From: Levilactobacillus parabrevis ATCC 53295
Lineage (GTDB): Bacteria; Bacillota; Bacilli; Lactobacillales; Lactobacillaceae
Direction: 5' to 3'
Assembly: GCF_001434055.1 (NCBI RefSeq)
Contig: NZ_AZCZ01000017.1
Coordinates: 1-57,489 of the forward strand
DNA length: 57,489 bases
The notes beneath the pieces are model-generated. The model was given only the letters and a program-made list of their open reading frames with translations. It was not told where the DNA came from and did no database searches. Positions 205 through 54,281 of this stretch are shown here, piece by piece (positions within the stretch are counted from its first letter, which is position 1; every line of letters begins with the position of its first letter). The position numbers were made by a program, and so were the translations under genes.

Positions 205-477
205 AGAATTTGAAAGGATTTGTTGCATTAATGCTGAATCCAAGCCGGAGGAAGTCAGGGATGGCGCCGGCCGTGACGGCGGTGTTAGGCCGGGTGATTG
301 ATTTCCCCCGGTCTTACAGCGTGGGACGCGTTTGGAAACTCGCCTGAACTTGGCGAGGTTTCAAACCGAGCCGGAAGCCAGTACTTTGGCTGCAGGCGGT
401 CCCCACAGCAGGCAGAACCCCTGACAGCCGCAGGCGACCAGTCTCGACAATCCCATCAGCAATGTGGCAAACAAACT
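205..477 (+). repeat. Structured element A1 (multi-helix intergenic family)
   Basis: This is one of seven related elements. A long imperfect outer arm (GTTGCATTAATGCTGA at 222-237 against 456-471) leads to P1 (GTCAGGG 254-260 with CCCTGAC 419-425). P2 is 281-294 with 305-320. The joining strands GTGGGAC (321-327) and GTCCCCAC (399-406) can pair. P3 is 330-344 with 352-366, and P4 lies at about 371-397. The block GGTCCCCACAGCAGGC is shared with most other copies. The short reading frames over it are by-products of GC-rich stems. Its function is unknown. It lies upstream of the first operon and does not overlap the gene. Confidence 0.85.
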
Positions 478-614
478 CAAAAATTTTAAAAATTTCATTG
501 TTTTCCGGCGAAATTGGGCGAAACTGCTTTATTCTGCGGCGTTTTTTGGTAACATGAACGTATAACCAAATGTTTTCAGCACAGGCTGGGGAACATGAGA
601 ATGAGGGATAATCC

Positions 615-1493
615 ATGGAAAATCAAGAACAGCAAGCCAATGCAGCCGATGCCCTGACGCAGGTAATCGCAGGTAAACTCGATTACTTAAGTACGATGCA
701 GGCAGCGGTTCAGCATGGCGATGACCGAAAAATCTACGAACTTCTTGATCAAGTTCGCTACTACCAAGAAGTAAAGAAGACCCGTGCTAACCGGTCCGTG
801 AACCATTTAGCCGAATTGGTCGACAACATTCATCCCCAAATTAGCCATTATTTGAGTGACAATTTAATCGATTATTTAGGCCACATTTACCCGTTCTTTT
901 ACTACGAAGAATTTACGACGGGGATGTTCCACATTTACTTTGGTAACTGGTGGGACCGGCGATTATTTGGTGACCTAGACGTCATCAATGTTCGTTTTGA
1001 GTTTGACAAGACCGAATACCAAAAGCTCCGCGATTCCTTCGGGCTGGAGGGCCAAGGCCAACGTTTGAACACGTCAAAGATTGAAGCTGTTTCCGCTGAA
1101 AGCGAAAAGCTACAGGAATTAGTCGATGCTCAGGCAACGCGGGACAACGAGAAGACTAAGCTGCGTGACCAGTTGAAGGAAAACAGTGGCAAGAGCAGCA
1201 TGCCATGGGAATCTGGCAAGGTTAAAGGCGAACGCCAAGAAATTATCGATCAATTGACGAAGCTGGCGGACGAGGACGAAAAGGCTCTGAACGCCCACAA
1301 ACAGATCAAGGAAAACGACGATAAGATTCTGGTCTTGTCCAAGGAAGATACGATTTTGAATTACGAAAAGCAAAGCATTCGCGATGCATTTGATGATTTT
1401 GAACATTTCGAGGCTCACAATGCTAGCTTGTATGCCGATTACTTGAACAGCCTATTGGGTAAGAGCGAGGGTGAGGTGACAGTCGATGATTAA
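615..1493 (+). CDS. Unknown protein with a central coiled-coil-like region (292 aa)
   Basis: I do not recognise this protein. It starts at an ATG preceded by GAGGG with suitable spacing. The N-terminal ~140 residues look globular and aromatic-rich (for example YPFFYYEEF and GNWWDRR). Residues ~150-260 are highly charged and heptad-like, suggesting a coiled coil, and the C-terminus is acidic. There is no signal peptide or membrane segment, so it is probably cytoplasmic. It is the first gene of a tight operon with another unknown protein (overlap of 8 bp) and a dUTPase-fold protein. That context hints at nucleotide or nucleic-acid housekeeping but does not prove it. The coiled coil could attract an SbcC-like label, but I see no Walker motifs, so I would not use that name. 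Confidence 0.8.
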   Translation: MENQEQQANAADALTQVIAGKLDYLSTMQAAVQHGDDRKIYELLDQVRYYQEVKKTRANRSVNHLAELVDNIHPQISHYLSDNLIDYLGHIYPFFYYEEFTTGMFHIYFGNWWDRRLFGDLDVINVRFEFDKTEYQKLRDSFGLEGQGQRLNTSKIEAVSAESEKLQELVDAQATRDNEKTKLRDQLKENSGKSSMPWESGKVKGERQEIIDQLTKLADEDEKALNAHKQIKENDDKILVLSKEDTILNYEKQSIRDAFDDFEHFEAHNASLYADYLNSLLGKSEGEVTVDD

Positions 1494-2427
1494 CGAAAAC
1501 GATCCATCCACGTTAACCACGAGCGGCCGCCTACTGAACTATAACGAAGCCATCAAGGACGGCCTGCAAACCGGGTTGACCTTTACGAAACTCATGGACC
1601 AGTTGATTCGGACGACCGATGCTGATGAACTGGTTAGTGCGGCCACGCAACTCGCCGACTTTCAATTGGACTCCGACTACGTTACATTTCCACACCAATA
1701 TAGTAATGCCGATTACTACCTGTTATTCATGTCACGGATGTTGGAATTGCACGATCAGGGTAGCCAAGTGATCTTGCAGTCACGTGATCACCGTGAAGAG
1801 TTGACGCAACAGTTGACGACGTTAGGCGATCGGGGAACCTTTAGTTTCCGCGTAGAATCCTCCGAAAATGGTGGGGTCTTCTACCGTGAACGGGCAACCG
1901 GTCAATCCTTGTTCTACCTGAACTTGGAACGCAAGATGTTCCGCTTCAACAGTCATGCGTTGACCCAACTCTTCATCATTGACCTGCACGAGACGGTTCC
2001 GGCCGAAACGGTTAAGACCTCCGTTCAGGTATTATTGGACTTTGCGCGTTACTTGAAGGAAGACTACGGTTATTCCGTGGACTTTAACATCTTGGACGCT
2101 GCTAACCGCCAGAACTATTCAGTTCGGGCCGCAGATTTGCCAGCAGGTATCGTCGACCGCTTGTTTGTGACGGCCGCTAAGAACGACTACATGCTGACGA
2201 ACGGTGTGAATGGTAACGGGGCCGAAATCGCGTTGGATAACAACGTGGTCGTGGATATCTTCAATAATCAATTGGAAGGTCAGCCCGAATGGGTCTTGAC
2301 CGTCCATGATGATGATCAGAAGATTTCCTGGTTCGATGTGCTACTGAAATACCCGTTCATGCGGGATTGGTACTTAGAAAATCTGACGGATCTGGAAATT
2401 AAGTCAGACCCACTCGTCTTTGAATAG
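1486..2427 (+). CDS. Unknown conserved-looking cytoplasmic protein (313 aa)
   Basis: I do not recognise this protein. Its ATG lies inside the end of the preceding gene, so the two are probably translationally coupled. It is a soluble, acidic mixed alpha/beta protein without signal peptide, transmembrane helices or any catalytic motif I can name. Aromatic and aspartate-rich stretches occur near the C-terminus (for example FMRDWYLENL). The dUTPase-like gene follows after 12 bp, so all three are likely one transcript. Coding statistics and operon position make it a real gene. Its function remains open. Confidence 0.8.
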   Translation: MINENDPSTLTTSGRLLNYNEAIKDGLQTGLTFTKLMDQLIRTTDADELVSAATQLADFQLDSDYVTFPHQYSNADYYLLFMSRMLELHDQGSQVILQSRDHREELTQQLTTLGDRGTFSFRVESSENGGVFYRERATGQSLFYLNLERKMFRFNSHALTQLFIIDLHETVPAETVKTSVQVLLDFARYLKEDYGYSVDFNILDAANRQNYSVRAADLPAGIVDRLFVTAAKNDYMLTNGVNGNGAEIALDNNVVVDIFNNQLEGQPEWVLTVHDDDQKISWFDVLLKYPFMRDWYLENLTDLEIKSDPLVFE

Positions 2428-2439
2428 GGGGTTCACGCG

Positions 2440-2982
2440 GTGTTAGAACTAGCAAAACTGGTACAGCAGTCCATCTCCTTAGATGAACAGATTACCCGGG
2501 ATAGAGACATTGAACTTCCCCGGAAGGTTCAAATCGAGAACGCCTACGTCGCACTGGATGTCGAATTGGCTGAAACGGCCAACACGTCCGAGTGGTTCAA
2601 GGTGTGGAAGACGCATCGTGGTAAGGCTGATGAAGGCCAAACGCCACGCCAGACCTTACTGACGGAGTATACCGATGCCATGGACTTTTTCTTCCTGGTC
2701 GCGGCCAAGAAAACCTGGACGCATCTGATTATGATCACCGAGGAGGACCTGAAGGGGCTGGAGAAGAGTCGGCCAGCTAAGGACCTTGATCAACAATACT
2801 TAATTCTAAAGCGCATGTTATTTAACAGCCACTTTGACCACCGACAAGAAGATTTCCGCCACGCTTGGCGGCTATTCTTGAAGTGGGGCTTTGTGGATTT
2901 CGGATTTAGCCAAGATGAGATTCAAACGGCTTATGAAGAAAAACGCAAAGTTAACCTGGATCGTCAGGCAAATGATTATTAG
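2440..2982 (+). CDS. dut: Dimeric all-alpha dUTP diphosphatase (MazG-superfamily fold)
   Basis: It probably hydrolyses dUTP to dUMP and pyrophosphate, limiting uracil in DNA and supplying dUMP for thymidylate synthesis. The family's paired acidic motifs are visible: VELAETAN at about residues 41-48 and, some 30 residues later, LLTEYTDAMDF. These correspond to the ExxE and ExxD metal-binding helices of all-alpha NTP pyrophosphatases. FKVWKT between them matches the family's FKyW-type segment. The length (180 aa) is normal. I chose the GTG at 2440, 12 bp after the previous stop, and a terminator follows. The fold assignment is firm; dUTP rather than another NTP as substrate is inferred from the family. 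Confidence 0.75.
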   Translation: MLELAKLVQQSISLDEQITRDRDIELPRKVQIENAYVALDVELAETANTSEWFKVWKTHRGKADEGQTPRQTLLTEYTDAMDFFFLVAAKKTWTHLIMITEEDLKGLEKSRPAKDLDQQYLILKRMLFNSHFDHRQEDFRHAWRLFLKWGFVDFGFSQDEIQTAYEEKRKVNLDRQANDY

Positions 2983-2996
2983 AATAGCAACAGTTC

Positions 2997-3027
2997 AAAA
3001 GGATCGCCCAATCGCCGGTCCTTTTTG
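2997..3027 (+). terminator. Intrinsic terminator after the dut operon
   Basis: A stem of the form AAAGGA..GCC closes with GGTCCTTT and runs into a T-tract, 14 bp after the dut stop codon. Confidence 0.8.
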
Positions 3028-3195
3028 CGTCTTCAGGAGAAGTTAAGCTTTTCACAGACTGGTTGATAGTATACGAGGGTGTCCTCGGTAGGAATGTGGG
3101 CTGTTATGGGCACCGTGTGTCAAATATGGTAACAGTCGCGATTATTAGGAGAAGACTGCTGGCATTTTTGAGTGGGGACTGTTAAAATGCAAGAG

Positions 3196-3300
3196 CTATG
3201 TGTTAAGAACTATTGATTAACATCACTATTACCTAATAGTTCTATATGTAATCGTAACTGTCCTAAAACTTTTAAATTATCGAAGACTGACAGTTACGGC
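3196..3300 (+). promoter_or_regulatory. Cluster of inverted repeats upstream of the TetR-type gene
   Basis: Three perfect inverted repeats occur in ~100 bp. They are TGTTAA (3201-3206) with TTAACA (3217-3222), GAACTATT (3207-3214) with AATAGTTC (3235-3242), and GTAACTGTC (3254-3262) with GACAGTTAC (3289-3297). They lie just upstream of the regulator, so they may be operators for autoregulation or folded leader hairpins. No other gene occupies the stretch from 3028 to 3343. Confidence 0.5.
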
Positions 3301-3343
3301 TGAATATTTATAAATTTCATGAACCAAAAGGGAGGGGACTCTT

Positions 3344-3973
3344 ATCAGTCACGTCGATCCACGGGTCGTTCGGACCAATGAACGGCTACGTCAAGCCCTA
3401 AGTGTTTTACTTGAAGATCATCAGTTAAGGGAAGTCTCCGTGCAAACACTGACGAAGACCGCTCAGATTACCCGCGGTACCTTTTATCTCCACTACAAAG
3501 ACAAGGCCGACTTCCTCCTGCAAACGGAGCGACAGGTCGTGGACGAGTGGTTCTTTCACGCTGAAACGATTACGGCGGTTACTGACACCAATACGGCTGC
3601 AGGCGTTTTACAGGTGACCGGATTTGATCTGAATGCTGCACTGGAGTATGCGGACAAGCACCATCAGATTCTGGCCACATTGTTTGATACCCAGTTCCCA
3701 CATTTCCGGGAATATTTACTGGCTACGCTGATTCAGAAGCTGTACCAGTTTGGTTTGAACTTTGAGGGGAAACAACAAAACTTTCACATGACGGAAAACG
3801 AAATTCCGGCCAGCTATCTGGCGTCTGCTTTCATGGGGATGATCATGCAGTGGCTGGCCGATGACCGGCGCTTCAGTTATAGCCATCTGGGCCGTAGCTT
3901 TGCGGCACTGTTGCCCAGCCCCGAAGCAACGCGGCTACGTGAGTGGTTCATCACGTGTAACCTGGAGAAGTAA
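3344..3973 (+). CDS. TetR/AcrR-type transcriptional regulator, apparent ATC start
   Basis: The N-terminal helix-turn-helix is typical of TetR: an arginine-rich first helix, then TLTKTAQITRGTFYLHYKDK, where the recognition helix ends in TFYLHY. The effector-binding half (~130 residues) is of the kind found in Lactobacillaceae regulators. The frame opens after TGA at 3320-3322 and has no ATG, GTG or TTG before GTG at 3440, which would remove the first ~32 residues of the DNA-binding domain. The ATC at 3344 lies 7 nt after a GGAGG (3332-3336) and restores a full-length protein of 209 residues. The target genes are unknown; the upstream inverted repeats suggest autoregulation. Confidence 0.7.
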   Translation: MSHVDPRVVRTNERLRQALSVLLEDHQLREVSVQTLTKTAQITRGTFYLHYKDKADFLLQTERQVVDEWFFHAETITAVTDTNTAAGVLQVTGFDLNAALEYADKHHQILATLFDTQFPHFREYLLATLIQKLYQFGLNFEGKQQNFHMTENEIPASYLASAFMGMIMQWLADDRRFSYSHLGRSFAALLPSPEATRLREWFITCNLEK

Positions 3974-4052
3974 GCGTCAGGTGTTTCGGCCTATAGCGAT
4001 AACGTTCTAATTTAAAACAGGTCGTTGTTTTCACCCGAATTGAAAATAAAGC

Positions 4053-4081
4053 TTGACGTGAGAAATCCTATCAAGTATAAT
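4053..4081 (+). promoter_or_regulatory. Strong sigma-70-type promoter of the rplU operon
   Basis: TTGACG and TATAAT are separated by exactly 17 bp. The L21 leader begins just downstream. Confidence 0.85.
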
Positions 4082-4086
4082 TTTCA

Positions 4087-4195
4087 TGTTGTATTTGTGG
4101 ACTTCCACAGCTGCAACCGCTCGGGACAAGTCATTAAGTTTTCCGCTTGCGGAGCACTTGTTTTCGGCGAGTCTAAGTCTAAAATTATAAGGAGG
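4087..4195 (+). ncRNA. Ribosomal protein L21 leader (autoregulatory mRNA leader)
   Basis: Between the promoter and rplU is a ~110-nt untranslated, hairpin-rich segment with CCACAGCTGCAACCGCTCGG and a GC-rich hairpin around TCCGCTTGCGGA. Position and appearance match the L21 leader found ahead of rplU-ysxB-rpmA in Firmicutes, which is thought to bind a ribosomal protein and set operon expression. Assignment is by eye and synteny. Confidence 0.7.
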
Positions 4196-4204
4196 TGCAC
4201 ACAC

Positions 4205-4513
4205 ATGTACGCAATTATCGTAACTGGCGGCAAGCAGTACAAGGTCGAAGCAGGCCAAGCTGTTTACGTCGAAAAGTTGAACGTTGAAGCTGGTGAAAAG
4301 GTTACTTTTGACCAAGTTGTCTTTGTCGGTGGCGAAACGCCTAAGATCGGGACGCCAACTGTTGCAGGTGCAACTGTTACTGGAACTGTTGAAAAGCAGG
4401 GTCTGGAAAAGAAAGTTGTTACTTACAAGTACAAGGCCAAGAAGGGCCAACATACGAAGAAGGGTCACCGTCAACCATATACCAAGGTTGTCGTTGATGC
4501 TATCAACGCTTAA
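4205..4513 (+). CDS. rplU: Large ribosomal subunit protein bL21
   Basis: It is a 23S rRNA-binding protein of the 50S subunit. The sequence begins [14 protein letters not shown], the classic L21 start, and ends in a basic tail with [14 protein letters not shown]. Length (102 aa) is normal. I chose ATG 4205 behind AAGGAGG; the frame stays open upstream, but that part belongs to the leader. It is the first gene of the rplU-prp-rpmA operon. Confidence 0.97.
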
Positions 4514-4541
4514 GCCTAAAGATTAAAGAGAGGCGATCTCG

Positions 4542-4880
4542 ATGATTCACGCGACGTTCCATCACGGAGCTAACCGAATCGATTCATTCCAAATCACTGG
4601 CCATGCTGACTCAGGTGAGTATGGTCAAGACATTGTTTGTGCCGCAGTATCGGTGCTTGCGATCACGACCGTCAACAGCTTGCAACGAATCGCTAAGATT
4701 CCGGTGCAAGTCGACAACCGCGATCAGGAAGGTGGCTTTCTGGAAGTCCACCTCCCACCAAAGCTGGAAGCAACGGCTGAACTTAAGGGACAAACGCTCC
4801 TCCAGAGTTTTGCGGATGGGTTAAGAGATGTCGCCACAAATTACGCGGATTTTGTTAAATTCGCAGAAACCAAAGATTAA
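4542..4880 (+). CDS. prp: Ribosomal-processing cysteine protease Prp
   Basis: It removes the N-terminal extension of bL27, which is essential in Firmicutes that make an extended L27. The predicted catalytic pair is visible: the His of TGHADSG (~residue 21) and the Cys of DIVCAAVS (~residue 34). Length (112 aa) fits the YsxB/Prp family. It sits between rplU and its substrate gene rpmA, the conserved arrangement. The rpmA product in this window carries the matching cleavage motif. Confidence 0.95.
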   Translation: MIHATFHHGANRIDSFQITGHADSGEYGQDIVCAAVSVLAITTVNSLQRIAKIPVQVDNRDQEGGFLEVHLPPKLEATAELKGQTLLQSFADGLRDVATNYADFVKFAETKD

Positions 4881-4898
4881 TTTGCGGAGGTGAAACTT

Positions 4899-5198: not shown

Positions 5199-5220
5199 CA
5201 CGAGGTTTTCCTCGTACGAC

Positions 5221-8266: not shown

Positions 8267-8540
8267 TTTGCAGACGTACGAGCTATGACTGTGGAGAAAA
8301 GTGACCGCCTTCGGCTGCCAGGGGTTCCGCCTGCTGTGGGGACCGGTGCGAGCCTGTGGAGCGGTCTCGCACCTCGACTTTAAGCCATGCCAGGTTCGGG
8401 CATGGCTTAAAGCTCGTCCCGCGCTGTAACCCCGGGAAGAACCGAGCGCCCGGCGTAACACCGCCGTCACGGCCGGCTGCACCCCTGGCCGCCTGCGGCT
8501 ATGACTTGTCGCTGTTGTCAGTGGTGGTGGATCTGCGAAC
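8267..8540 (-). repeat. Structured element A2 (multi-helix intergenic family)
   Basis: This copy is inverted. The outer arm starts GTTTGCAGA (8267-8275) and closes at TCTGCGAAC (8532-8540). Read on the minus strand, P1 is CCAGGGGT with ACCCCTGG. P3 is a perfect CTTTAAGCCATGCC with GGCATGGCTTAAAG. P4 is GGTGCGAG with CTCGCACC around the loop ACCGCTCCACAGG. The GGTCCCCACAGCAGGC block is present. The arm begins in the U-tract of the nusB terminator. From 8541 to 8902 I see no gene, only a possible -10 (TATGCT at 8855) for folD. Confidence 0.88.
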
Positions 8541-15610: not shown

Positions 15611-15713
15611 GTGTACAACTTAGTTTAATGCTATTACAAATTACCCCTTAAATTAAATTAATGATTGATATATAATTGATTTAGCAAACAAAAACGGTGT
15701 AGAGGTGTGCGTC

Positions 15714-17483
15714 ATGTGGAAAAGAATTGGATTATTGGGAGTTAGTTTATTAGTTGGACTGGTTATTTTAGTGAGTGGTGGGCAGATAAGAGCACAAGCG
15801 GATGATGTTACGACCCTTATGAATGGGCTAGATGGACCTAGTGCTGTTGAAATAAATAAGACAGGTGATGGCGGAATATGGCAAACGATTCCGACTGATT
15901 CCACTCTTGAGTCGGGTGAAAATTACTATCTGCATTATAACTGGACTATAAATAATGGTGTGACAATCAATGAGGGTGACACGGCGACAGTGACATTGCC
16001 TGCCGGCTGTAGCCCAAGTATCGCTTCCGGTTCTTCAGTGACCATTACGGATTTCTCAACAAACGAAGAGGTTGCTTCGCTTGTTGTTGATAAGAAGGGA
16101 GAAGGTGGAGCTGATTCAACGGCCCATATTGAGTTTACAAAGGATCTCAAGGATAACTACAATCGTCACGGAACATTGTCATTTTATGCGGGTGGAACCG
16201 CTGAGAACACGGCATCTGGGAATGCGGTCATTACAAAGAATGGTTGGGTTCAGGAATCCCGGGGTAGTGCTGGAATTCCGACACAGACGACCTGGGATAT
16301 TGACTTCAATTCATTACACCAAAATTTGGGTGAAGTTACGTTAACTGATACCTTGGGAGATTTTCAAACGTATGATCCGGACAAAGATAAAATCACAGTT
16401 TTGCAAGTAAAAGATCCAGATGGTACTAATGAATCAGATTCAGAAGCTGTAAAGTACACGCCTAAAGTATCTGTGGATTCGAGTGGCAAGATCATTACAT
16501 TTGAATTTCCCAATATAGATTCTAAAGAAATTACAATTTGGTATACGTCGACGGTGTCTAATAGTTTATCCGGTTCAGGTGGTTCCTTGGGCAATGGTGT
16601 TTCCATGATAAGTGCCAATCCGACAACTGGTGATAAAGGAACTGAAAATGGTACCGGAGCGGCGGATAATCCGGCCAAAATGATTAAAAACTTTTTTTGG
16701 GGTGGTTATGGTGAGTATCAAGGAGGTTATCGCCGTACAATTGTTTTAACTAAGACTGGCGTTAATGGGGTGCGCCTCAAAGGAGCAACTTATACGTTAA
16801 CGAATTCAAAATCGAGTTCAAATAAAAAAGAGTATCAAGGAACCACTGATGAAAATGGTCAAATATTCTGGGAAAATATGGCTCCTGGAAGTTATACCTA
16901 TGTAGAGAATTCGGCTCCGGATGGTTATGCAGTGGATTCGACCCCGTATAAGGCAACAATTACTGCAAATGATGGTCCAGATGACTTAAGTGTCAGTGCA
17001 AGTGACAAGCTAAAAGAGTCCAGCAGTAGTTCTAGTGATAGCTCTAGCGATAGTTCCAGCAGTAGTTCTAGTGACAGCTCTAGCGATAGTTCCAACAATA
17101 GTTCTAGTGACAGTTCTAGCAATATTTCTAGTGATAGCTCTAGCAATTCCAGAGAATCTGATTCTTCCGATAGTTCAGATGGCTCCAGCAATTCTAGTAG
17201 CTCCAACACCAGTTCCACGAGTACTTCATCCACTAAAGCCAAGCGCACCACGGTAGCTAACGTAGTGTCCAGCAACTCTAGTTCTACCACGCCACGTAAC
17301 GGTGGAACCGCAGCCGGCACAACGGCTAACACGGCTTCTAAGGCTACTAAGCCTCGTACCAATGCCAATGGTTATTTACCGCGAACTAACGGGCAACGTA
17401 GCTTGTTAGCCATGCTGATTGGCTTCTTAATCTTAGGCTTGAGTCTCGCCGCTTCACAGTGGCGGAGGACTCACGTTAAGTGA
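15714..17483 (+). CDS. Sortase-anchored serine-rich adhesin with Cna-like domains
   Basis: It is a secreted, wall-anchored surface protein, probably binding a host, plant or cell-surface ligand. The order is a signal peptide (~1-30, ending QAQA), an adhesion-type beta-sandwich region (~35-310), a CnaB-like domain (~340-430, with TDENGQIFWENMAPGSY), a long Ser/Asp-rich stalk of SSSD-type repeats, and the sortase motif LPRTN near residue 560. A hydrophobic helix and a basic tail (RRTHVK) follow. Base composition is visibly more AT-rich than the neighbours, which suggests later acquisition. It stands alone between terminators and no sortase gene is nearby. I chose ATG 15714; GTG 15705 is nearer the ribosome binding site. 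Confidence 0.88.
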   Translation: MWKRIGLLGVSLLVGLVILVSGGQIRAQADDVTTLMNGLDGPSAVEINKTGDGGIWQTIPTDSTLESGENYYLHYNWTINNGVTINEGDTATVTLPAGCSPSIASGSSVTITDFSTNEEVASLVVDKKGEGGADSTAHIEFTKDLKDNYNRHGTLSFYAGGTAENTASGNAVITKNGWVQESRGSAGIPTQTTWDIDFNSLHQNLGEVTLTDTLGDFQTYDPDKDKITVLQVKDPDGTNESDSEAVKYTPKVSVDSSGKIITFEFPNIDSKEITIWYTSTVSNSLSGSGGSLGNGVSMISANPTTGDKGTENGTGAADNPAKMIKNFFWGGYGEYQGGYRRTIVLTKTGVNGVRLKGATYTLTNSKSSSNKKEYQGTTDENGQIFWENMAPGSYTYVENSAPDGYAVDSTPYKATITANDGPDDLSVSASDKLKESSSSSSDSSSDSSSSSSSDSSSDSSNNSSSDSSSNISSDSSSNSRESDSSDSSDGSSNSSSSNTSSTSTSSTKAKRTTVANVVSSNSSSTTPRNGGTAAGTTANTASKATKPRTNANGYLPRTNGQRSLLAMLIGFLILGLSLAASQWRRTHVK

Positions 17484-20511: not shown

Positions 20512-20521
20512 GGTGACAACC

Positions 20522-22939
20522 ATGGCCCAGATTGGCCAAATTTTAGTGGATGTTCCAACCATGCAGACGAACGACCCGTATTCCTACGCGATTCCGACCG
20601 AGCTGGAACATCAGGTACAGGTGGGGATGCGTGTGATCGTGCCGTTTGGCCGTGGTCACCGCCTAGTCTCCGGCGTAGTCGTTGGGTTGAGCGATGTCAC
20701 CAGCTTTGATGGCAAGCTAAAGCCGATTGAAACGGTCCTCGACCTTGCCCCCGTTTTAAACACGGAATTACGTCAGTTGGCAGATTGGCTGGCAACCGAG
20801 ACTTATGCCTTTCGGATTACCTGTATTCAAACGATGCTGCCTAATCTATTGAAGACCCAGCCTAAACGGCAGGTGCAACCAACGACCACGCTGACTCCGG
20901 GTGAGATGGCTACGTATTTCCCAGAAGGCGCCCCGCGCGACTTCGATGCCACGAAACTCGATGATGCTACGGTTGCTGGTCTGCTGAAGCTGCAACGGGC
21001 GGGTAAAGTCGAGGTCGTCTACGAGGTCAAGGATAAGGCGGCCGCCAAGACGACCACTGGGATCACACCAGCGCTGACGTCGGCTAAACTCCAAGAAATT
21101 GCCGGTGAGGTGGCTAAACGGGCACCCAAGCAAGCTGAACTATTAGCCTATTTGGCACAGATGTCAGCGGATAAGGTCGTTGCGCAAGCTACTGTCGCGA
21201 AACAAGCCGGGGTCACCCCCGCTGTCATCGCCACGGCCGCGGATAAGGGGTGGCTGACTAAGAGCACGCTCGAAGTCTATCGCGATCCCTTTCATCAGCC
21301 AGTCACACCGACCCAACCTTTAAAATTGAATTCGGAACAACAGGTGGCGGTGGACCGTATCACGCAGGCCATCGATAGCCAAAAGTCCGAGAACTTTCTA
21401 GTCGAAGGCGTCACTGGGAGTGGGAAGACGGAGGTCTACCTGCAAAGCATCGCGCAAGCCCTGCAACAGGGACGCACGGCGCTAATGCTGGTGCCCGAAA
21501 TCGCCCTTACCCCGCAGATGGTCAACCGAGTCAAGGCCCGGTTCGGCCAGCGAGTGGCGGTCCTACACAGTGGTTTGTCTAAGGGTGAACAGTATGACGA
21601 ATGGCGGCGCATCGACCGTGGCGAGGCCACAGTAGTCGTTGGTGCCCGTTCCGCCGTCTTTGCCCCGGTTGAGAATCTGGGCATCATCATCATGGATGAG
21701 GAACATGAAAGTAGTTATAAACAGGATGAAAATCCGCGGTATCACGCCAGAGACGTGGCGCTTTGGCGCGGACAGTATCACCATTGTCCAGTTGTCTTGG
21801 GCAGTGCGACGCCGTCGTTAGAGACGCGGGCCCGGGCGGCTAAGGGGCTGTATACCCGATTGGTCCTTTCAAAGCGGGCCAAGGCGCAACCAATGCCCAC
21901 CGTTCACATTGTCGATATGCGTGAGCAGTTGAAACAGCAGGGCGATAGCGACTTTTCCGAGCCCCTGATGACGGCTATTCAGGAACGACTCGACCGTCAC
22001 GAGCAGATTGTCTTGATGCTCAACCGGAGGGGGTACTCGTCGTTTGTGATGTGTCGGGACTGTGGCTTTGTCTTGAAGTGTCCGAACTGTGACATTTCAC
22101 TGACACTCCACATGGATACTCACAGTATGAAATGTCACTACTGCGGGCATGAAGAGGCCATTCCACACGTGTGTCCCAACTGCCATAGCAAGAAGATTCG
22201 CTACTATGGGACGGGAACACAAAAGGTACAGCAAGCGTTGGAAAAGTTACTGCCTACTGCGAAAATTTTGCGGATGGACGTGGATTCCACACGGCGTAAG
22301 GGTGCTCATGAACGGATTCTTCGGCAATTCGGCGAGCACAAGGCTGATATTTTACTGGGGACGCAGATGATTGCCAAGGGACTGGATTTTCCTAACGTCA
22401 CGCTGGTCGGAGTGTTGAACGCCGATACTGCGCTGGGGTTACCGGATTTTCGGGCCAGTGAGCGTACGTTCCAGCTGTTGACGCAGGTCAGTGGCCGGGC
22501 CGGTCGGGCAACCAAACCCGGCGAGGTCTACATTCAGACGTTTAACCCGGACCACTACGCGATTCAGTTAGCGCAGAGCCAAGACTACGAACGCTTTTTC
22601 GTGACGGAAATGCACATGCGTCATCAGGGGAGTTATCCGCCGTATTACTTTGCGGTGCAGCTGACGGCCAGTCACGAAGAGGAAGCGGTGGCGGCAAAAG
22701 CCATGTATCAGATTGTGGATGCGCTGAAGCAGGGCCTCAGTAAGAATGCCATTATTCTCGGCCCCACACCCAAGGCGATTGCGCGGGTCAAGCGGAAGTA
22801 TTATTATCAAGTTGTGATTAAATACAAGCAGGAACCACAGCTGCGGCCGGTGCTGGAGCAGATCCGGCAGGCGGCACAGGTGCCGGCGCGTCACGGTCTC
22901 TCCGTCACCATCGATTCCGAACCCATGAATTTCATGTAG
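20522..22939 (+). CDS. priA: Primosomal replication restart helicase PriA
   Basis: It recognises stalled forks and reloads the replicative helicase. The N-terminal 3'-DNA-binding domain is followed by a winged helix and a DEAH-type helicase core. Visible are Walker A GVTGSGKTEVY, IIMDEEHESSYKQ, a zinc-binding module with four CxxC-type pairs (CRDCGF, CPNCD, CHYCGH, CPNCHS), and the helicase motif SGRAGRA. I chose ATG 20522, preceded by GAGGTG. The TAG stop lies in the left arm of fold-back C. Confidence 0.96.
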   Translation: MAQIGQILVDVPTMQTNDPYSYAIPTELEHQVQVGMRVIVPFGRGHRLVSGVVVGLSDVTSFDGKLKPIETVLDLAPVLNTELRQLADWLATETYAFRITCIQTMLPNLLKTQPKRQVQPTTTLTPGEMATYFPEGAPRDFDATKLDDATVAGLLKLQRAGKVEVVYEVKDKAAAKTTTGITPALTSAKLQEIAGEVAKRAPKQAELLAYLAQMSADKVVAQATVAKQAGVTPAVIATAADKGWLTKSTLEVYRDPFHQPVTPTQPLKLNSEQQVAVDRITQAIDSQKSENFLVEGVTGSGKTEVYLQSIAQALQQGRTALMLVPEIALTPQMVNRVKARFGQRVAVLHSGLSKGEQYDEWRRIDRGEATVVVGARSAVFAPVENLGIIIMDEEHESSYKQDENPRYHARDVALWRGQYHHCPVVLGSATPSLETRARAAKGLYTRLVLSKRAKAQPMPTVHIVDMREQLKQQGDSDFSEPLMTAIQERLDRHEQIVLMLNRRGYSSFVMCRDCGFVLKCPNCDISLTLHMDTHSMKCHYCGHEEAIPHVCPNCHSKKIRYYGTGTQKVQQALEKLLPTAKILRMDVDSTRRKGAHERILRQFGEHKADILLGTQMIAKGLDFPNVTLVGVLNADTALGLPDFRASERTFQLLTQVSGRAGRATKPGEVYIQTFNPDHYAIQLAQSQDYERFFVTEMHMRHQGSYPPYYFAVQLTASHEEEAVAAKAMYQIVDALKQGLSKNAIILGPTPKAIARVKRKYYYQVVIKYKQEPQLRPVLEQIRQAAQVPARHGLSVTIDSEPMNFM

Positions 22940-23182
22940 TTGGTTGCCGGCTTTCTGGTAGACGATGACCGACGCCTTACCGGTGGGCTCGTAGATACTG
23001 GAACGTGGTGGGCACAACTTTAAGCCCCACAAAAAGCGTGGGTCTTAAAGCTTGGCCTTTGTCTAAGTGGCAAGAACCGTGCCACTTAGACAAACGACAC
23101 CACTGAGCATCTACGAGCCCACCTCACGGCTTAGGTAGGTCGTTGTCGATCACAAAGCGGACTGGCAACAGTTACATGAAAT
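22929..23182. repeat. Fold-back element C: 250-bp near-palindrome with two internal hairpins
   Basis: The outer arms pair from ATTTCATGTA (22929-22938) to TACATGAAAT (23173-23182), spanning the priA stop codon. They culminate in a perfect 14-bp stem, GTGGGCTCGTAGAT (22983-22996) with ATCTACGAGCCCAC (23109-23122). An inner stem GTGGTG (23005-23010) with CACCAC (23098-23103) encloses two hairpins: CTTTAAGCCCCAC with GTGGGTCTTAAAG (23018-23050) and a perfect 15-bp TTTGTCTAAGTGGCA hairpin (23058-23094). The architecture (GTGG closing stem, CTTTAAG hairpin, second hairpin) parallels the core of elements A1-A7, but the loops differ. Confidence 0.85.
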
Positions 23183-28687: not shown

Positions 28688-28819
28688 GTTACCAAATTTT
28701 CAAAGAAAGCGGGCAAAGGAAACCTTGCAACCAGTTGCCCGCTGGATGTGTATTTGTTTAAGTGGTTTCGCAGGTTTAAAACGACTGGCCGGTTTACCTG
28801 GCATTTTTGCACGTTAAAT

Positions 28820-29064
28820 CAGTGTCAGCCGTGAGGGCGGTGAGCAAGTGTAACCGCAGGAGGTCAGGGATGTAGCCGGCCGTGACAGCGGTGTTGTCTG
28901 GCGTTCTTTGCCAGACTACAGCGCGGGACGAGCTTTAAGACGGGTGAACTTCGCGGCTTAAAGTCGAGGCAAAAGACCGTTCTTAGGCTTTTGCCGGTCC
29001 CCACAGCAGGCGGAATTCCTGACAGCCGAAGGTGACTACTTTCACCGCCCGGTAAGGCGAACTG
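28820..29064 (+). repeat. Structured element A3, with B-type outer arm
   Basis: The core is of the A type: P1 near GTCAGGGAT, P2 GTCTGGC with GCCAGAC, a P3 that begins CTTTAAG, P4 GGCAAAAG with CTTTTGCC around ACCGTTCTTAGG, and the GGTCCCCACAGCAGGC block. The outer arm differs from the other A copies: GCCGTGAGGGCGGTGA on the left and TCACCGCCCGGTAAGGCGAA on the right. These arm sequences recur nearly unchanged in element B at 54091-54281. It lies between the prkC terminator and rsgA. Confidence 0.87.
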
Positions 29065-31358: not shown

Positions 31359-31599
31359 CTTGGCGGTGTACTATTTGAGTTTACCGCCTGCGTGCCAGGG
31401 TTGCGCCTGCTGTGGGGACCGGCAAGAGCCTGAGAAGCGGTCTCTTGCCTCGACTTTAAGCCGTGAAATTCACACGGCTTAAAGTTCGTCCCATGCTGTA
31501 AGACCGGGAAGAACCAAGCGCCCGGCCTAACACCATCGACACAGCTGGCTCCATCCTGGCCTCCTCCGGCTCACCATTACTAGAGCTGTGCAGTTATTC
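31353..31599 (-). repeat. Structured element A4 (multi-helix intergenic family)
   Basis: This copy is inverted. The outer arm pairs GAATAACT (31353-31360) with AGTTATTC (31592-31599) and includes the thiN stop codon. On the minus strand, P1 is GCCAGG with CCTGGC. P3 is a perfect CTTTAAGCCGTG with CACGGCTTAAAG, and P4 is GGCAAGAG with CTCTTGCC around ACCGCTTCTCAGG. The GGTCCCCACAGCAGGC block is intact. Confidence 0.87.
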
Positions 31600-34726: not shown

Positions 34727-34970
34727 ACAACGCTTAGATGCGTGATCCGTTGTCGCCTGCGACTGCCAAGGGTTCCGCCTGCTGTGGGGACCGGGAAAAG
34801 CCTGAAAAACGGTCTTTTCCCTCGACTTTAAGTCACGAAGAACACGTGTCTTAAAGTTCGTCCCATGGTGTAAAGGCCGGGAAAATCACCCAGCCTAACA
34901 CCATGGACACGGCTGGCTACACCCTTGGCCTCCTCCGGCTCAGACGGATCGTTCACGTCCAAGCATTGTT
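34727..34970 (-). repeat. Structured element A5 (multi-helix intergenic family)
   Basis: This copy is inverted. The outer arm begins ACAACGCTTAGA (34727 on) and closes at CCAAGCATTGTT (34959-34970). On the minus strand, P1 is GCCAAGGGT with ACCCTTGGC, P2 includes CATGGTGT with ACACCATG, P3 begins CTTTAAG, and P4 is GGGAAAAG with CTTTTCCC around ACCGTTTTTCAGG. The next element, A6, is 195 bp away in the opposite orientation. Confidence 0.87.
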
Positions 34971-35165: not shown

Positions 35166-35416
35166 TTGAATTTGTGATTAACTGCTTGTTTAGCTGGAGG
35201 CTGTCAGGGATGGCGTCAGCCGTGACAACGGTGTTAGGCCGGGTGTTCGGTTTCCCCCGGCCTTACAGCGTGGGACGTGTTTGGAAACTCGTCTGAATTT
35301 TGACGAGGTTTCAAACCGAGCCGGAAGCCCGTTCTTTGGCTGCAGGCGGTCCCCACAGCGGCAGAATCCCTGACAGCCGCAAGCGGAACGAAACGCGCAT
35401 TAACCACAAGATTAAA
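35166..35416 (+). repeat. Structured element A6 (multi-helix intergenic family)
   Basis: The long outer arm includes TTTGAATTTGTGATTAA (35166-35182) against TTAACCACAAGATTAAA (35400-35416), then GGCTGTCAGGG with CCCTGACAGCC. It is closest to A1: both share the GTTTGGAAACTCG-type P3 and a P4 with an internal loop around a CCGTTCTTTGG-type loop. The conserved block is shortened by two bases. It ends ~30 bp before recG. Confidence 0.88.
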
Positions 35417-50162: not shown

Positions 50163-50209
50163 TGGTAATCGTTATTTTACAGAATGTGACCTGAAGGGGT
50201 GTGAAGGTA

Positions 50210-51394
50210 GTGGCCTTAACGTATCAAGCGTGTTTGCAAGCAACCAACGTCGTCATAGCGAGTGGGAGTGTGCCCACCATCGTGGGTGAAGCGGGGATTG
50301 GGAAATCTGCGTTAGTCGCGGACCTGGCCTGTCAGCGCCATGCCAAGTTATTTACGACGGTCGTCAGTTTAGTGGAAAAGGGGGATCTGGTGATTCCCGT
50401 GCCACCACTGACGAGTGATTCCTTTGTCCAGACCGAAAAGTATGGGTCGCTGGCCGATGTGCAATTCGGCTATTCGCACACCCTGGTCGCCATGATTCGT
50501 TACGCCGAGGCCCATCCAGATCAGGAGATCATCTGGTTTTTGGATGAATTTAACCGGGGAACGCAGGCGGTTCAGAGTGAGCTGATGAACCTTGTGCTCC
50601 AACGGCAAATCAATACGTTGACGCTACCGAAACAGGTCCACCTGATCCTTGCGGAGAATCCTGATGCGACCATGGCCGGTTTCGAGCAGAGTCGCTACGG
50701 CGTGACCCCCGGGGATGCAGCGATTGCGGACCGGACGACGCGGCTCGTCTTAACGGCGGACGCCACGACTTGGTTGGCCTGGGCGACACAGACGAGCGCT
50801 GGGCAGCCACGAATTCACCCGCTGGTCACAGCTTATCTAGCGGAAAATCCCGCCGATCTGCACGTGGTCGCGACGACCAATGCTATGGCGGATGATGACC
50901 TGCAACCGACACCCCGTGCCTGGGAGCGGGTCTCCCAAGCCTTACACGAACTAGAACAGCAACGACTCCTGAGTCAAACGGCGGTCGTGGCGGCCATCAT
51001 GCAAGGAAACTTGGGGATGACGGTCGGCACGGCTTTTGCCGGTTACGTGCAAGAGCAGCGGCCGGGATTGACCGTTGATCAAGCGTATACGACAGCTGAT
51101 GCGGTGGCCGTCTTCAAGGCGCTAGCACCCGCGCAGCAGCAACAAATTTTGCGACTATGTTTGGCCGCCAATGCTGCGGAATGGCCCTTGACGACGGGGA
51201 GTACGGCCCAACGGTTCAGCGAATTGTTAGCCGCCTGTCCTGCCGATGGTCAGTTTGCGATTGCTCAACAGCTGGCGGAGGAACCAGATCTGTTGGAACA
51301 GTTAGCGGCTGTGACGGCGACAACGCCCGGTGTGGCGAAGTTGTACCAGCAGTTAACGACGATTGGCAAGCGTGGTAGTCAGATCGAGGTGTAG
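50210..51394 (+). CDS. MoxR-type AAA+ ATPase
   Basis: It is a probable chaperone ATPase that acts with a VWA partner. Walker A is GEAGIGKSALV (~residues 24-34), Walker B is IIWFLDEFNRG, and the sensor-1-type segment is LILAENPD. Such pairs help assemble or activate metal enzymes and other complexes in other bacteria; the client here is unknown. I prefer GTG 50210 with AAGGGG upstream; GTG 50201 is too close. The VWA gene follows after 3 bp. Confidence 0.88.
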   Translation: MALTYQACLQATNVVIASGSVPTIVGEAGIGKSALVADLACQRHAKLFTTVVSLVEKGDLVIPVPPLTSDSFVQTEKYGSLADVQFGYSHTLVAMIRYAEAHPDQEIIWFLDEFNRGTQAVQSELMNLVLQRQINTLTLPKQVHLILAENPDATMAGFEQSRYGVTPGDAAIADRTTRLVLTADATTWLAWATQTSAGQPRIHPLVTAYLAENPADLHVVATTNAMADDDLQPTPRAWERVSQALHELEQQRLLSQTAVVAAIMQGNLGMTVGTAFAGYVQEQRPGLTVDQAYTTADAVAVFKALAPAQQQQILRLCLAANAAEWPLTTGSTAQRFSELLAACPADGQFAIAQQLAEEPDLLEQLAAVTATTPGVAKLYQQLTTIGKRGSQIEV

Positions 51395-51397
51395 GCG

Positions 51398-52750
51398 ATG
51401 ACCAGTTTAACGCAGGATTTGAAGCGGTTGGCTACGGTGCCGCTGGCTGATCAGCGGTCACAAACTCAGAAACTTTACCGTAATGCGGTTATGGCACTAT
51501 TACAGACGGACCCCTTCTACGGCCACGTGCTCAGTCAGCTGACGCTAGAGGTTGGTCAGGGGCGTACGCCATTAGAGCTGCGGCCAACGACCACTGATTG
51601 GCGACTACGATTAAATCCTGATGCCATAGCTAAACAGAGTTGGACCGGAGCGCAGTGGGTAACGATGCTCCGACACACGGTACTACACTTGCTGTGGCAA
51701 CACCCGCAACGGTACGCCGCTGCGCTACAGACACCGGCGCAGGCCGGACTGGTACGGTGGGCGACGGACGCTGCGGTCAATGACTATCTGACCGATTTAC
51801 CGGCGCAAGCAATTACCAGTCAAAAGCTCCAGCAGCTGATTGGGCAACCGGTCTTGCGGCAACAGGATTCGGCCGTTTATTTTCAACAATTGCGTCAATG
51901 GCGGGCCAAGCAACACGCCTCGACACAGCCTAAACCGGCTGGTGGACCGGCGCATCCGGGAACCGAAGTGGCCCACCTGACCGCCACCGAAGGGACTGAG
52001 CCGACCGATTTGGACGGCCACACGACCTGGGGCCAGGCAGACGCTACCGCCGCAGCTAATCGCGAACAGTGGCGTCAACAGCTCTTCCAACACACGGCGG
52101 ACACCTTGACGGCCAAGCAACGAGGAACGCTCCCTGGGGCCGTTCAGGCGGCTCTGACGCCTACGATGGCCGAGCATCCGCTAGATTGGCGAGCTTTGCT
52201 CAAACGGGGACTGGGACAGGTGCCAGCGGGGCGTCAGCCGGCGTTTGGACGATTCAATCGTCGGCAACCGGCGCGAATGGAGCTCCCCGGACAAATCGTG
52301 ACGACTTGGCAGAAGATTTCGGTCTTTGTTGACGAGTCTGGGTCGATGGGGGACCGCGAGATTAGCTACCTGTTGGGGCAGATGGCCGCGTTATTAGCCG
52401 TTTATCCCGCCCAGGTGACCGTTTATCCCTTTGATACGGTTGTGGACCCCAGTAAGAGCTTTGACTTACAGCGACGTCCTCAGTGTCTCATACGGACAGG
52501 TGGAGGTGGCACGCGGTTCCAAGCGGTCCTCGATGTCTTGCCCCGGCTTCTGCAGGGGGCGAGCGGTCAGCTGGTCATTATTTTGACGGATGGCTATGGT
52601 GAACGCCACTTGAAGCCAACGTTACCGGTACCCGTGATCTGGTTGCTGACGAGTCCCGTCGCGGCATTCTCAGTCGAGTCGGCTCCCGGTACCGTGGTCA
52701 GTCTAATGGCTGATCCGCAATGGCAAGCGATAAGGAGGGAAAAGTCGTGA
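51398..52750 (+). CDS. VWA-domain protein with degenerate metallopeptidase-like N-terminus
   Basis: The N-terminal ~150 residues resemble the DUF2201-type metallopeptidase-like domain. At the HExxH position the sequence is H93-T-V-L-H97, so the catalytic Glu is Thr, and LLWQHPQR follows. A Gln/Pro-rich linker leads to a C-terminal von Willebrand A domain with an intact MIDAS (DESGS from Asp312, GGGGTRF, LTDGYGE). It is the usual partner of the MoxR gene just upstream. The likely role is a metal-dependent adaptor rather than a protease. It overlaps the next gene by 3-4 bp. Confidence 0.88.
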   Translation: MTSLTQDLKRLATVPLADQRSQTQKLYRNAVMALLQTDPFYGHVLSQLTLEVGQGRTPLELRPTTTDWRLRLNPDAIAKQSWTGAQWVTMLRHTVLHLLWQHPQRYAAALQTPAQAGLVRWATDAAVNDYLTDLPAQAITSQKLQQLIGQPVLRQQDSAVYFQQLRQWRAKQHASTQPKPAGGPAHPGTEVAHLTATEGTEPTDLDGHTTWGQADATAAANREQWRQQLFQHTADTLTAKQRGTLPGAVQAALTPTMAEHPLDWRALLKRGLGQVPAGRQPAFGRFNRRQPARMELPGQIVTTWQKISVFVDESGSMGDREISYLLGQMAALLAVYPAQVTVYPFDTVVDPSKSFDLQRRPQCLIRTGGGGTRFQAVLDVLPRLLQGASGQLVIILTDGYGERHLKPTLPVPVIWLLTSPVAAFSVESAPGTVVSLMADPQWQAIRREKS

Positions 52751-53043
52751 CCCAACAATTAACGGCGGCCGAGTTACGGTCGTTGATCAAACAAACGGCC
52801 CCGTATCGCAATGCTCACGCCATATTGGCTGACGAGTGGGGTGCACGGGCCCAAGAGAATCCGTTGTTCCAAGAGCCGATTACCGTAGCCGACCTCCAGT
52901 TTGCCAAGGATCTGCAGGCAGCAGGAGTGAGTCCGGTAAAATTAGAGTTCGACGATTACGGGGCCGTTCAGCGGTGGATTGCCGCAAATCAACAGTATTT
53001 AACCCCGAATGATCGGGCCTGGTTACAGCGTCCTTTCGATTAA
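52747..53043 (+). CDS. Small unknown protein after the MoxR/VWA pair (98 aa)
   Basis: I do not recognise this protein. GTG 52747 overlaps the VWA stop and follows AAGGAGGG. It is a soluble, mostly helical protein with a basic N-terminal half and acidic C-terminal half, ending in NDRAWLQRPFD. Tight coupling suggests it is a third component of the MoxR/VWA module. Confidence 0.75.
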   Translation: MTQQLTAAELRSLIKQTAPYRNAHAILADEWGARAQENPLFQEPITVADLQFAKDLQAAGVSPVKLEFDDYGAVQRWIAANQQYLTPNDRAWLQRPFD

Positions 53044-53067
53044 TTTCGAGGTGTAAAGAAAAAACCC

Positions 53068-53096
53068 TTTACATCATATCCATAAACTGGTATATT
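53068..53096 (+). promoter_or_regulatory. Promoter for rpsP
   Basis: TTTACA and TATATT are separated by 17 bp, ~25 bp before the ribosome binding site AGGAGG. Confidence 0.8.
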
Positions 53097-53130
53097 ATTA
53101 CACGTTGAAAGAAATACAGGAGGTGTCTAC

Positions 53131-53406
53131 ATGTCAGTTAAGATTCGTTTAAAGCGGATGGGTTCTAAGAAGCGCCCATTCTACCGGATTGTGGTTGCCG
53201 ACTCACGGAGTCCTCGTGATGGTCGTTTCATCGAACAAGTTGGAACGTACAATCCAGTTACCCAACCTGCTTCAATTACGTTGAAGGAAGAATCTATCAT
53301 GAACTGGTTGAACAACGGTGCTCAACCTTCAGATACGGTTAAGACTTTACTCTCCAACGCTGGTATCATGAAGCAATACCACGAAGCTAAATACACTAAA
53401 AAGTAG
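53131..53406 (+). CDS. rpsP: Small ribosomal subunit protein bS16
   Basis: It is a 30S assembly protein. The start [24 protein letters not shown] (split here: [16 protein letters not shown] then [13 protein letters not shown]) is diagnostic. Length (91 aa) is normal. It is followed by khpA, then rimM-trmD-rplS after a ~670-bp insertion of structured elements. Confidence 0.97.
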
Positions 53407-53415
53407 TGATTAGCC

Positions 53416-53676
53416 ATGACCGATTTTAAGGCATTAATTCTAGCAATTGTTAGCCCACTCGTGGAACATCCCGAAGCTTTGGTGGTAACACCTCAGGAGA
53501 CGGACCGGTTCTACGAATATCGGTTAACCGTTCATCCGGACGATATCGGTCGGGTGATCGGTAAACAAGGCCGCGTGGCGCAGGCGATTCGTACGATCGT
53601 CTATAGCGTTCGCGTTCAAGGCAATAAACGGGTACGACTCATCATTGATGACCGCCCGGCAAAGACTCTCGAGTGA
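53416..53676 (+). CDS. khpA: KH-domain RNA-binding protein KhpA
   Basis: It is a small RNA-binding protein that pairs with KhpB and affects division and elongation in streptococci and lactobacilli. The KH motif HPDDIGRVIGKQGRVAQAIR is clear, with the GxxG loop GKQG. Length (86 aa) is normal. Its stop lies in the stem of a terminator. Confidence 0.95.
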   Translation: MTDFKALILAIVSPLVEHPEALVVTPQETDRFYEYRLTVHPDDIGRVIGKQGRVAQAIRTIVYSVRVQGNKRVRLIIDDRPAKTLE

Positions 53677-53703
53677 GGCGGCAACGTTTCCTCGAGTTTT
53701 TTT
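53668..53703 (+). terminator. Intrinsic terminator overlapping the khpA stop
   Basis: CTCGAG (53668-53673) and CTCGAG (53691-53696) pair, with TTTTTTT after. Confidence 0.75.
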
Positions 53704-53708
53704 GTACC

Positions 53709-53954
53709 CCAAACTAAGCGCACATTAAACGGCTAACTGTCCGCCTGCGGTTGCCAGAGATTCTGCCTGCTGTGGGACCGCCGAAAGCCATAGAGCGGTC
53801 TTTCGGCTCGATTTGAAGCCGTGAAGAGTCACACGTCTCCAAATGCGTCCCGTGGTGCTAGCCGAAAAATATCAGCTAGCACCACCGTCACGGCTGGCGC
53901 CATCTCTGGCCTCCTCCGGCTAAGATAGTCGCGTTAATGTGACGACTGGTTTGG
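53709..53954 (-). repeat. Structured element A7 (multi-helix intergenic family)
   Basis: This copy is inverted. The outer arms pair CCAAAC (53709-53714) with GTTTGG (53949-53954), then CACATTAA with TTAATGTG. On the minus strand, P1 is GCCAGAGAT with ATCTCTGGC, P2 is a perfect GTGGTGCTAGC with GCTAGCACCAC, and P4 is GCCGAAAG with CTTTCGGC around ACCGCTCTATGG. P2 and P4 show complete sequence replacement with pairing retained. Confidence 0.88.
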
Positions 53955-54090
53955 ACGTAAACTGGTGGGAAACGGTGCTAGTAGTGGTAAAATACCACTG
54001 CGGTAATCCGTAGTTTTGTCGTGATCGGTTATGGGGGTCATTCAATTTAAATGATTTCTGAGTTGAGTAGACAGGTAAATTTGGTTAAAG

Positions 54091-54281
54091 CAATGTCAGC
54101 CGTGAGGGCGGTGAAAATAAACTCAGCCGTGGGAATTCTCTAAGCGACTTGTCGCTTAGAGAATTGGTGACTTTGAAACTCGGTTCTCAGAGGTTCAAAG
54201 CAAGTTCCGAGACCGCTCTGTGGCTCGGGACGTCCGCCCACCGCGTTCCGGTTTATTTTCACCGCCCGGTAAGGCGAATTA
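54091..54281 (+). repeat. Structured element B (variant core, arm shared with A3)
   Basis: The outer arm GGGCGGTGAAAATAAAC (54105-54121) pairs perfectly with GTTTATTTTCACCGCCC (54251-54267). Flanking GCCGTGA and GGTAAGGCGAA match A3. Inside, GTGGG/CCCAC encloses a perfect 15-bp hairpin (54134-54165), a CTTTGAA/TTCAAAG hairpin (54171-54200), and GTTCCGAG/CTCGGGAC (54204-54231) with the loop ACCGCTCTGTGG, the same loop as P4 of family A. The remaining gap to rimM is AT-rich and featureless. Confidence 0.87.

Follow-up and report, generated by a model that had tools for sequence, protein, structure and literature searches.

A multi-copy family of branched, strongly covarying intergenic elements in Lactobacillaceae, probably working as folded RNA

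The window analysed here, a stretch of 57,489 nucleotides from Levilactobacillus parabrevis ATCC 53295, is contig 43 of a 2.61-Mb genome (G000) and carries nine structured intergenic elements, several of them beside genes for a thiamin pyrophosphokinase, a FakA-like/Dak2 protein, a RecG-like helicase, a KH-domain protein and RimM. Over the best segment, a protein from the window shares 88-91% identity with Levilactobacillus enshiensis, L. suantsaiihabitans and Ca. L. faecigallinarum, in line with a Levilactobacillus host. With their many relatives elsewhere in the genome, the elements would constitute a new family of structured elements, multi-copy and intergenic, that probably works as folded RNA. 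An earlier note on this DNA had described seven elements of about 250 bp and one variant, all sharing one fold. A covariance model, R1, built from 36 copies in the same genome, matches all eight at the positions given there, with E values for the seven main cores ranging from 1.3e-44 to 4.7e-58. That count was incomplete, however, since a ninth, shorter relative is present, and the single shared fold needs qualification: the seven cores belong to one main family, whereas the variant represents a second multi-copy subfamily (B), with further copies in the genome at up to 93% identity. The third element, at 28820-29064, listed as an ordinary member, does have a main-family core, but its outer arms resemble those of the variant. 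The elements are as follows.

Element 1, core, 243..438, plus strand: main family; R1 217 bits, E 4.7e-58.
Element 1, outer arms, within about 60 nt of the core on each side: arms duplex -15.2 kcal/mol.
Element 2, core, 8304..8500, minus strand: main family; R1 188 bits.
Element 2, arm complementarity: 30-88 nt (5') and 30-92 nt (3') out from the core.
Element 3, 5' outer arm, 28813..28843, plus strand: variant type; 94% identity to 54084-54114 over 31 nt (repeat family D12).
Element 3, core, 28852..29036, plus strand: main family, in variant-type outer arms; R1 180 bits.
Element 3, 3' outer arm, 29037..29064, plus strand: variant type; CACCGCCCGGTAAGGCGAA also in element 8 (by alignment); arms duplex -31.6 kcal/mol.
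Element 4, core, 31383..31571, minus strand: main family; R1 168 bits; 3' end about 25 nt off the stop of the thiamin pyrophosphokinase gene (ends 31358).
Element 5, core, 34752..34940, minus strand: main family; R1 182 bits; downstream of the FakA-like/Dak2 gene (ends 34668); folding energy of core plus arms -140.5 kcal/mol, z -7.54.
Element 6, core, 35192..35387, plus strand: main family; R1 211 bits; directly upstream of the RecG-like helicase gene (start 35448).
Element 7, core, 53740..53921, minus strand: main family; R1 175 bits; downstream of the KH-domain gene (ends 53676).
Element 8, 54098..54278, plus strand: variant subfamily (B); R1 57 bits, E 3.2e-14; upstream of rimM (54347).
Element 9, 22971..23131, minus strand: short relative without P4; R1 51 bits, E 1e-12; fold z -9.95; 3' end about 32 nt off the stop of the open reading frame (ORF) 20513-22939.

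Elements 7 and 8 form a divergent pair. Element 9 has the basal motif AGCCGTGAGG...CCGGTAAGGCG in common with the variant, and two further extended matches to it occur in the genome.

The fold is a 62-pair structure derived from the 36 own-genome copies, aligned by sequence alone (alignment A2). From the outside in, it consists of a long outer stem, up to about 60 nt per side and almost free in sequence, GA-rich internal loops at the base, P1, a stem ending GTG/CAC, P2, a GGGAC/GTCCC stem, P3 and P4, the head being formed by two stacked three-way junctions that carry P2, P3 and P4. The GTGGGAC closing stem described earlier exists, but not as a single helix; it is the GGGAC/GTCCC stem plus the separate GTG/CAC stem. 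Letters conserved in the joining regions and loops include GGTCCCCACAGC, CGAG and AGACC..GGCT. The branched core measures about 196 nt, and with its arms the whole element reaches roughly 300 letters.

Compensatory covariation across the helices is overwhelming. Paired cells make up 95.9% of A2, and 44 of the 62 pairs change on both sides, giving 183 two-sided cells against 45 in shuffles, a value reached by none of 500 shuffles. Alignment A4, with 52 matches from Levilactobacillus and other genera taken from best-match loci, was, like alignment A5, fitted to the model; it is 96.3% paired, with two-sided change at 57 of 62 pairs and in 638 cells, compared with 163 cells in shuffles (0 of 500 reaching the observed value) and with 26-33 pairs and 52-99 cells in slid controls. 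The check for significant covariation that had been proposed for these elements therefore comes out very strongly by pair counts and shuffles, and the named alternatives of P1 and P4, in which a stem is replaced yet still pairs, are indeed present in the alignments. Because the shape is seemingly kept while the letters change, these results suggest that the fold itself has some function. R1 also matches the opposite strand of the seven main copies (25-47 bits), which means that the fold comes close to being self-complementary.

The long outer arm is likewise real, though it is not one conserved arm. Apart from a weak inner consensus, approximately GGTTAAAAnTTAGCT and CAAnTTTTAACC, the arms differ from copy to copy while tending to be complementary within each copy. 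At 30 nt, the two flanks of a copy pair with a mean of -13.7 kcal/mol, against -8.1 kcal/mol with the flanks of other copies (35 of the 36 copies, one being without a flank), and none of 20000 permutations reaches the own-flank mean. The signal is gone in the window from 40 to 80 nt, where 2 of 126 copies and 3 of 378 decoys show it. Two origins of the arms were considered. That they are pre-existing palindromes at the target was rejected as a general rule, because relatives with short intergenic regions between the KH-domain gene and rimM lack the arm sequences of element 7 (judged by eye), and because at yloV-recG the relatives that have elements or long regions differ after the terminator. 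That they are fresh inverted copies of flanking DNA is hinted at by one subfamily-B site, but is not claimed, because complementarity ends near 60 nt.

Pairing is also preserved at fixed sites. Comparison with the closest genome (G010, 95% over yloV) gave 39 pairs of ortholog candidates, 32 with both flanks, a few of which are possibly not true orthologs. For the arms (19 of the 39 pairs), the energy was -23.41 in the source sequence and -23.43 once the substitutions actually seen were introduced, but -16.12 when the same substitutions were placed at random (Wilcoxon p 5e-5); in the reverse direction (17 pairs), the same order was obtained (-24.36, -23.09 and -18.01; p 1e-3). For the core (25 of the 39 pairs), real substitutions gave -94.3 versus -81.0 for random placement (p 6e-7), and the reversed test gave -92.9 versus -78.2. 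Two-sided changes in the core left 35 positions paired and 12 unpaired (39 and 5 in reverse), where about 10 in all are expected by our own arithmetic. Selection on a folded single strand, either RNA or single-stranded DNA, had been put forward from the window alone, and the retention of pairing in both core and arms at orthologous sites upholds it. At several sites the core is conserved at the level of paralogs while the arms or the gene flank are conserved (at C35:45851 of G000, core 0.70 and arms 0.8/0.9), a pattern suggesting that cores have been exchanged between copies.

The family proved larger than the earlier note had it. In the genome, BLAST with one query copy, scoring 40 of 124 candidates, finds at least 44 matches, and R1, scoring 150 of 754 candidates, finds at least 135 at E <= 0.01; in G010, 109 matches lie in the 1.15 Mb sampled. 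Within the genus, 32 of 35 genomes have matches at E <= 0.001, many of them at least 72. The best E is below 1e-30 in 25 genomes and merely about 1e-15 to 1e-19 in G001, G008, G018, G019, G023, G033 and G034, and three of the 35 (G004, G012 and G024) have no R1 match at that threshold. Across Lactobacillaceae, with eight candidates per genome scored, matches at E <= 1e-4 occur in 64 of 301 genomes, representing 10 of the 40 genera. In a sample of the order, 10 of 295 genomes match, and all ten are the own genome or members of the same genus or family. As far as searched, then, the family appears to be found only in Lactobacillaceae. One query copy had no match in phage and plasmid collections, and carriage on such replicons was rejected as a candidate, three pattern matches in viral contigs being without a model match. 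Searching the 80 named loci that surround relatives of yloV with a sequence profile of the core gave no match.

Placement relative to genes follows a rule. We set 123 of 133 aligned copies between predicted ORFs of at least 90 aa, after dropping ORFs that overlap an element by more than 60 nt, a procedure by which small genes are missed. None of the 133 lies inside an ORF of at least 250 aa. Both orientations to genes occur, as had been noticed in the window, yet not at random: in 114 of the 123 placed copies it is the 3' end that lies nearer a gene (median 62 nt, against 377 nt for the 5' end), and this closeness holds whichever way the gene runs. The copies that face a stop number 76, with the core a median of 37 nt off, and those that face a start number 47 (median 66 nt). 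Neighbouring copies obey a second rule. In the sampled parts of G000 and G010, 31 of 32 pairs less than 450 nt apart are divergent and one is tandem; in a set of 45 loci, by our own count, 20 of 23 close pairs are divergent, those at L145, L157 and L308 being tandem. Both the rule that places the 3' end at a gene boundary and the rule of divergent neighbours are new. Intergenic regions of G000 with one element have a median length of 520 nt, against 124 nt without. A hidden partner element in the 5' spacer was considered and rejected, the spacers being no more structured (mean z -1.39, 58 spacers) than control intergenic regions (-2.46, 60 regions). An autonomous relative carrying a gene between inverted copies was also rejected, that pattern being absent from the spacing list, in which intervening genes are left unannotated.

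The mispairs that do occur are informative as to strand. Cells with G-U outnumber those with A-C by 88:34 in A2 (25 of the G-U at one pair), 148:25 in A4 and 374:91 in A5. In A5, the excess is found in copies facing a gene start (143:27), in copies facing a stop (204:57), and still in copies antisense to both neighbours (117:35). Where a Watson-Crick pair of the core has changed on one side only at an orthologous site, G-U:A-C is 61:34 in one direction and 55:27 in the other. An excess of this kind on one strand favours an RNA of the modelled strand, not necessarily one produced by the neighbouring gene.

Evidence for past mobility is indirect. At the KH-rimM site, measured in 33 of 35 genomes, 23 genomes have 75-125 nt, one has 195 nt and nine have 375-1678 nt; in G000 and G010, which both carry elements 7 and 8, the region measures 670 and 667 nt. 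The 1678-nt region is that of G005 (L263). Such length differences, and the main-family core in variant-type arms, lend some support to the mobile fold-back proposed earlier, but no mobilising enzyme could be tied to it. Among the 35 genomes, Y1_Tnp (in 23), IS110 (in 8) and reverse transcriptase (RT, in 10) each fail to track element presence; IS110 and RT have no match in the own genome, the element-rich genomes G002, G003, G020 and G029 have no Y1 match, and in G012 there are matches to Y1 and none to the element. Clean empty sites between G000 and G010 are few, several apparent ones being internal deletions with the ends of the element still in place, and no target-site duplication was established between the two. 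A recent burst of copies was rejected: the best identity in all-against-all comparison is 91.8% among 81 sampled copies of G000 and 92.8% among 100 of G010, with none at 95% or more. As for the hallmarks of a miniature inverted-repeat transposable element (MITE), the elements are non-coding, short and high in copy number, while the one shared sequence that might count as a terminal inverted repeat, the inner-arm consensus, is weak and the outer arms differ between copies. An IS200-type Y1 transposase gene lies in the window itself at 56665-57030 (minus strand), one of six Y1 matches in the own genome.

The Rfam 15 gathering scan of the window returned only a ribosomal protein L21 leader (4105-4184, plus strand), away from the elements. 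Rfam 15 scans by E value, run on a 6.8-kb stretch containing elements 3-6 and on 10 loci of several genera, returned only IRES_Tobamo at E 3.9 and a PyrR site off the element; in L111, a PyrR binding site below threshold (974-1077, plus strand; 44.7 bits, gathering 54) lies near another copy. The earlier statement that no named family fits thus stands for the stretches searched. Structured RNAs of similar size that are tied to mobile elements include the IS110 bridge RNA, the IscB/TnpB omega RNA and the retron non-coding RNA; unlike for these, no linked protein gene is seen here. The REP/RAYT system has a dedicated Y1 transposase. It differs from the present family, in which a branched core of about 196 nt is joined to arms and in which Y1 presence does not match element presence; the REP palindromes measure 20-40 bp in the portion available of PMC3733652.

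The family was not found described in the open-licence literature, including the available portions of PMC2267715, PMC3446304, PMC8632094 and PMC11109978. According to such portions of PMC3446304, bcr1-bcr18 are intergenic repeats of the Bacillus cereus group, of which bcr1-3 are MITE-like and bcr10 and bcr18 have conserved secondary structure and are transcribed in 5' untranslated regions (UTRs), the high-copy bcr repeats often belonging to UTRs. The present elements are likewise multi-copy and intergenic in a Gram-positive group, but, as far as the descriptions go, they are set apart by their hosts and by a double three-way junction with long sequence-free arms. Efa-1, RUP, BOX and ERIC, compared by description in the available part of PMC2267715, are also intergenic, of high copy number and predicted to share a common fold, which is often a stem-loop, sometimes a double hairpin and sometimes more complex. 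The same source describes Lac-1 of L. johnsonii as 231 nt long, with 34 copies, inside coding regions, and by that description the intergenic elements differ from it. Our elements, which covary strongly, show the many copies per genome and inconsistent gene orientation that serve as the mobile/repeat criterion in the accessible part of a 50-genome RNA survey (PMC11109978). They differ from its MRSC-65-2, a single long stem, by their branched fold, and the string 'Lactobacill' is absent from the main text of the survey as available.

We tentatively regard these sequences, with somewhat less than even confidence, as non-coding and probably once mobile elements of Lactobacillaceae that would act as folded nucleic acid, most likely as RNA of the modelled strand. 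Copies would have been placed in the past beside gene ends, many now being inherited at fixed sites, and cores would have been partly swapped between copies, with arms remaining at the site. The pairing is observed to be kept in place; its cause may be selection on the molecule or templated repair between the arms. Each copy might give a rod-like RNA of about 300 nt that starts on the long open 5' side and ends at the gene boundary. Such an RNA might be a leader at copies that point to a gene start and a separate or antisense RNA at those that point to a stop, and a protein might read its junctions and loops. It seems rather unlikely that these would be more than 100 separately expressed RNAs of about 300 nt, of one fold and with private outer stems, aimed at gene boundaries and kept copy by copy; bound up with that doubtful proposal is the suggestion that such a high-copy RNA system of lactobacilli, if real, would be without a known counterpart.

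Several observations weigh against action as RNA of the modelled strand, or against selection as the keeper of the fold. Gene conversion can import ready-made stems and so may inflate the core test, though the arms should not be accounted for in this way. Of the one-sided changes in the arms, 73 break a pair and 45 keep one, and the two-sided ones come close to the expected number (15 versus 11.2 expected). The partnership of the arms is loose in many copies: at 30 nt a copy's own partner comes first in 14 of 35 cases and is among the top five in 23 of 35, and 38 of 126 copies, versus 9 of 378 decoys, attain a score of 24 for complementarity within the first 40 nt. Some copies are reduced to remnants in one of the two species compared, which implies that single copies are dispensable. 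The G-U counts of A4 and A5 are somewhat favoured by model fit, and A4 was drawn from best-match loci. The opposite strand, too, can fold and is matched by R1. An independent RNA, as the earlier note had suggested, is plausible in that the G-U excess extends to copies antisense to both neighbours, but a promoter of the element's own was rejected as a candidate, the 5' flanks showing no enrichment of promoter-like sites (41 directed to the element versus 53 on the other strand).

The elements might instead act as fold-back DNA, single-stranded or cruciform, serving as a mobility signal, a protein roost, or a site of replication or recombination, with the pairing of the arms owed to templated strand-switch repair of imperfect palindromes and not to selection on RNA. 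We consider a DNA-level element a serious rival to folded RNA, if an unlikely one. One-sided arm changes show no G-U preference (28 G-T versus 32 A-C), as expected of a DNA hairpin and not of RNA; the arms differ between copies yet keep pairing, position is independent of gene direction, and either strand can fold. A cruciform, however, should show G-U and A-C alike, whereas the core has its excess on one strand, and conserved loop and junction letters also speak against this explanation. Distinctly doubtful is a non-autonomous, MITE-like transposon that depends on a transposase acting in trans and whose fold would be nothing but terminal inverted repeats and a hairpin interior. High copy number, short intergenic sites in sister species, an inner-arm consensus (GGTTAAAAnTTAGCT / CAAnTTTTAACC) that resembles a terminal inverted repeat, and the main-family core within variant-type arms are all consistent with it; the lack of an established target duplication and of a recent burst, the transposase distributions given above, and a fold kept at fixed sites, which is unexpected of inert copies, are not. 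We think it improbable that the elements are cis-acting UTR elements (messenger RNA stabilisers, RNase III sites or attenuators) recruited by neighbouring genes, as their short distances to starts and stops and the frequent occurrence of bcr repeats in UTRs (in the part available of PMC3446304) could suggest. The 76 of 123 copies facing a stop are antisense to that gene, 46 copies, which show the same strand-specific G-U excess, are antisense to the genes on both sides, and ten neighbouring proteins that were scanned are mostly varied housekeeping proteins, one being without a Pfam match.

Whichever molecule acts, a strongly covarying complex fold occurs in more than 100 copies in at least two genomes, with matches in ten genera of common food and gut bacteria, with a long stem of nearly free sequence whose pairing is kept at fixed sites, and with a strict rule of position relative to genes. 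The family offers a direct way to test two views of high-copy repeats in bacteria, as inert relics or as working RNAs.

Other repeats were seen in the same genomes. Further intergenic repeat families of about 120-240 nt, partly tandem and with up to about 98% identity between copies, occur in G010 and G000, examples being C45:66321-67019 (L214) and C54:94800-95449 (L179) of G010. In the window, tandem 12-nt repeats at 17019-17167 lie within the ORF 15705-17483 (D1) and probably encode a Ser-rich stretch.

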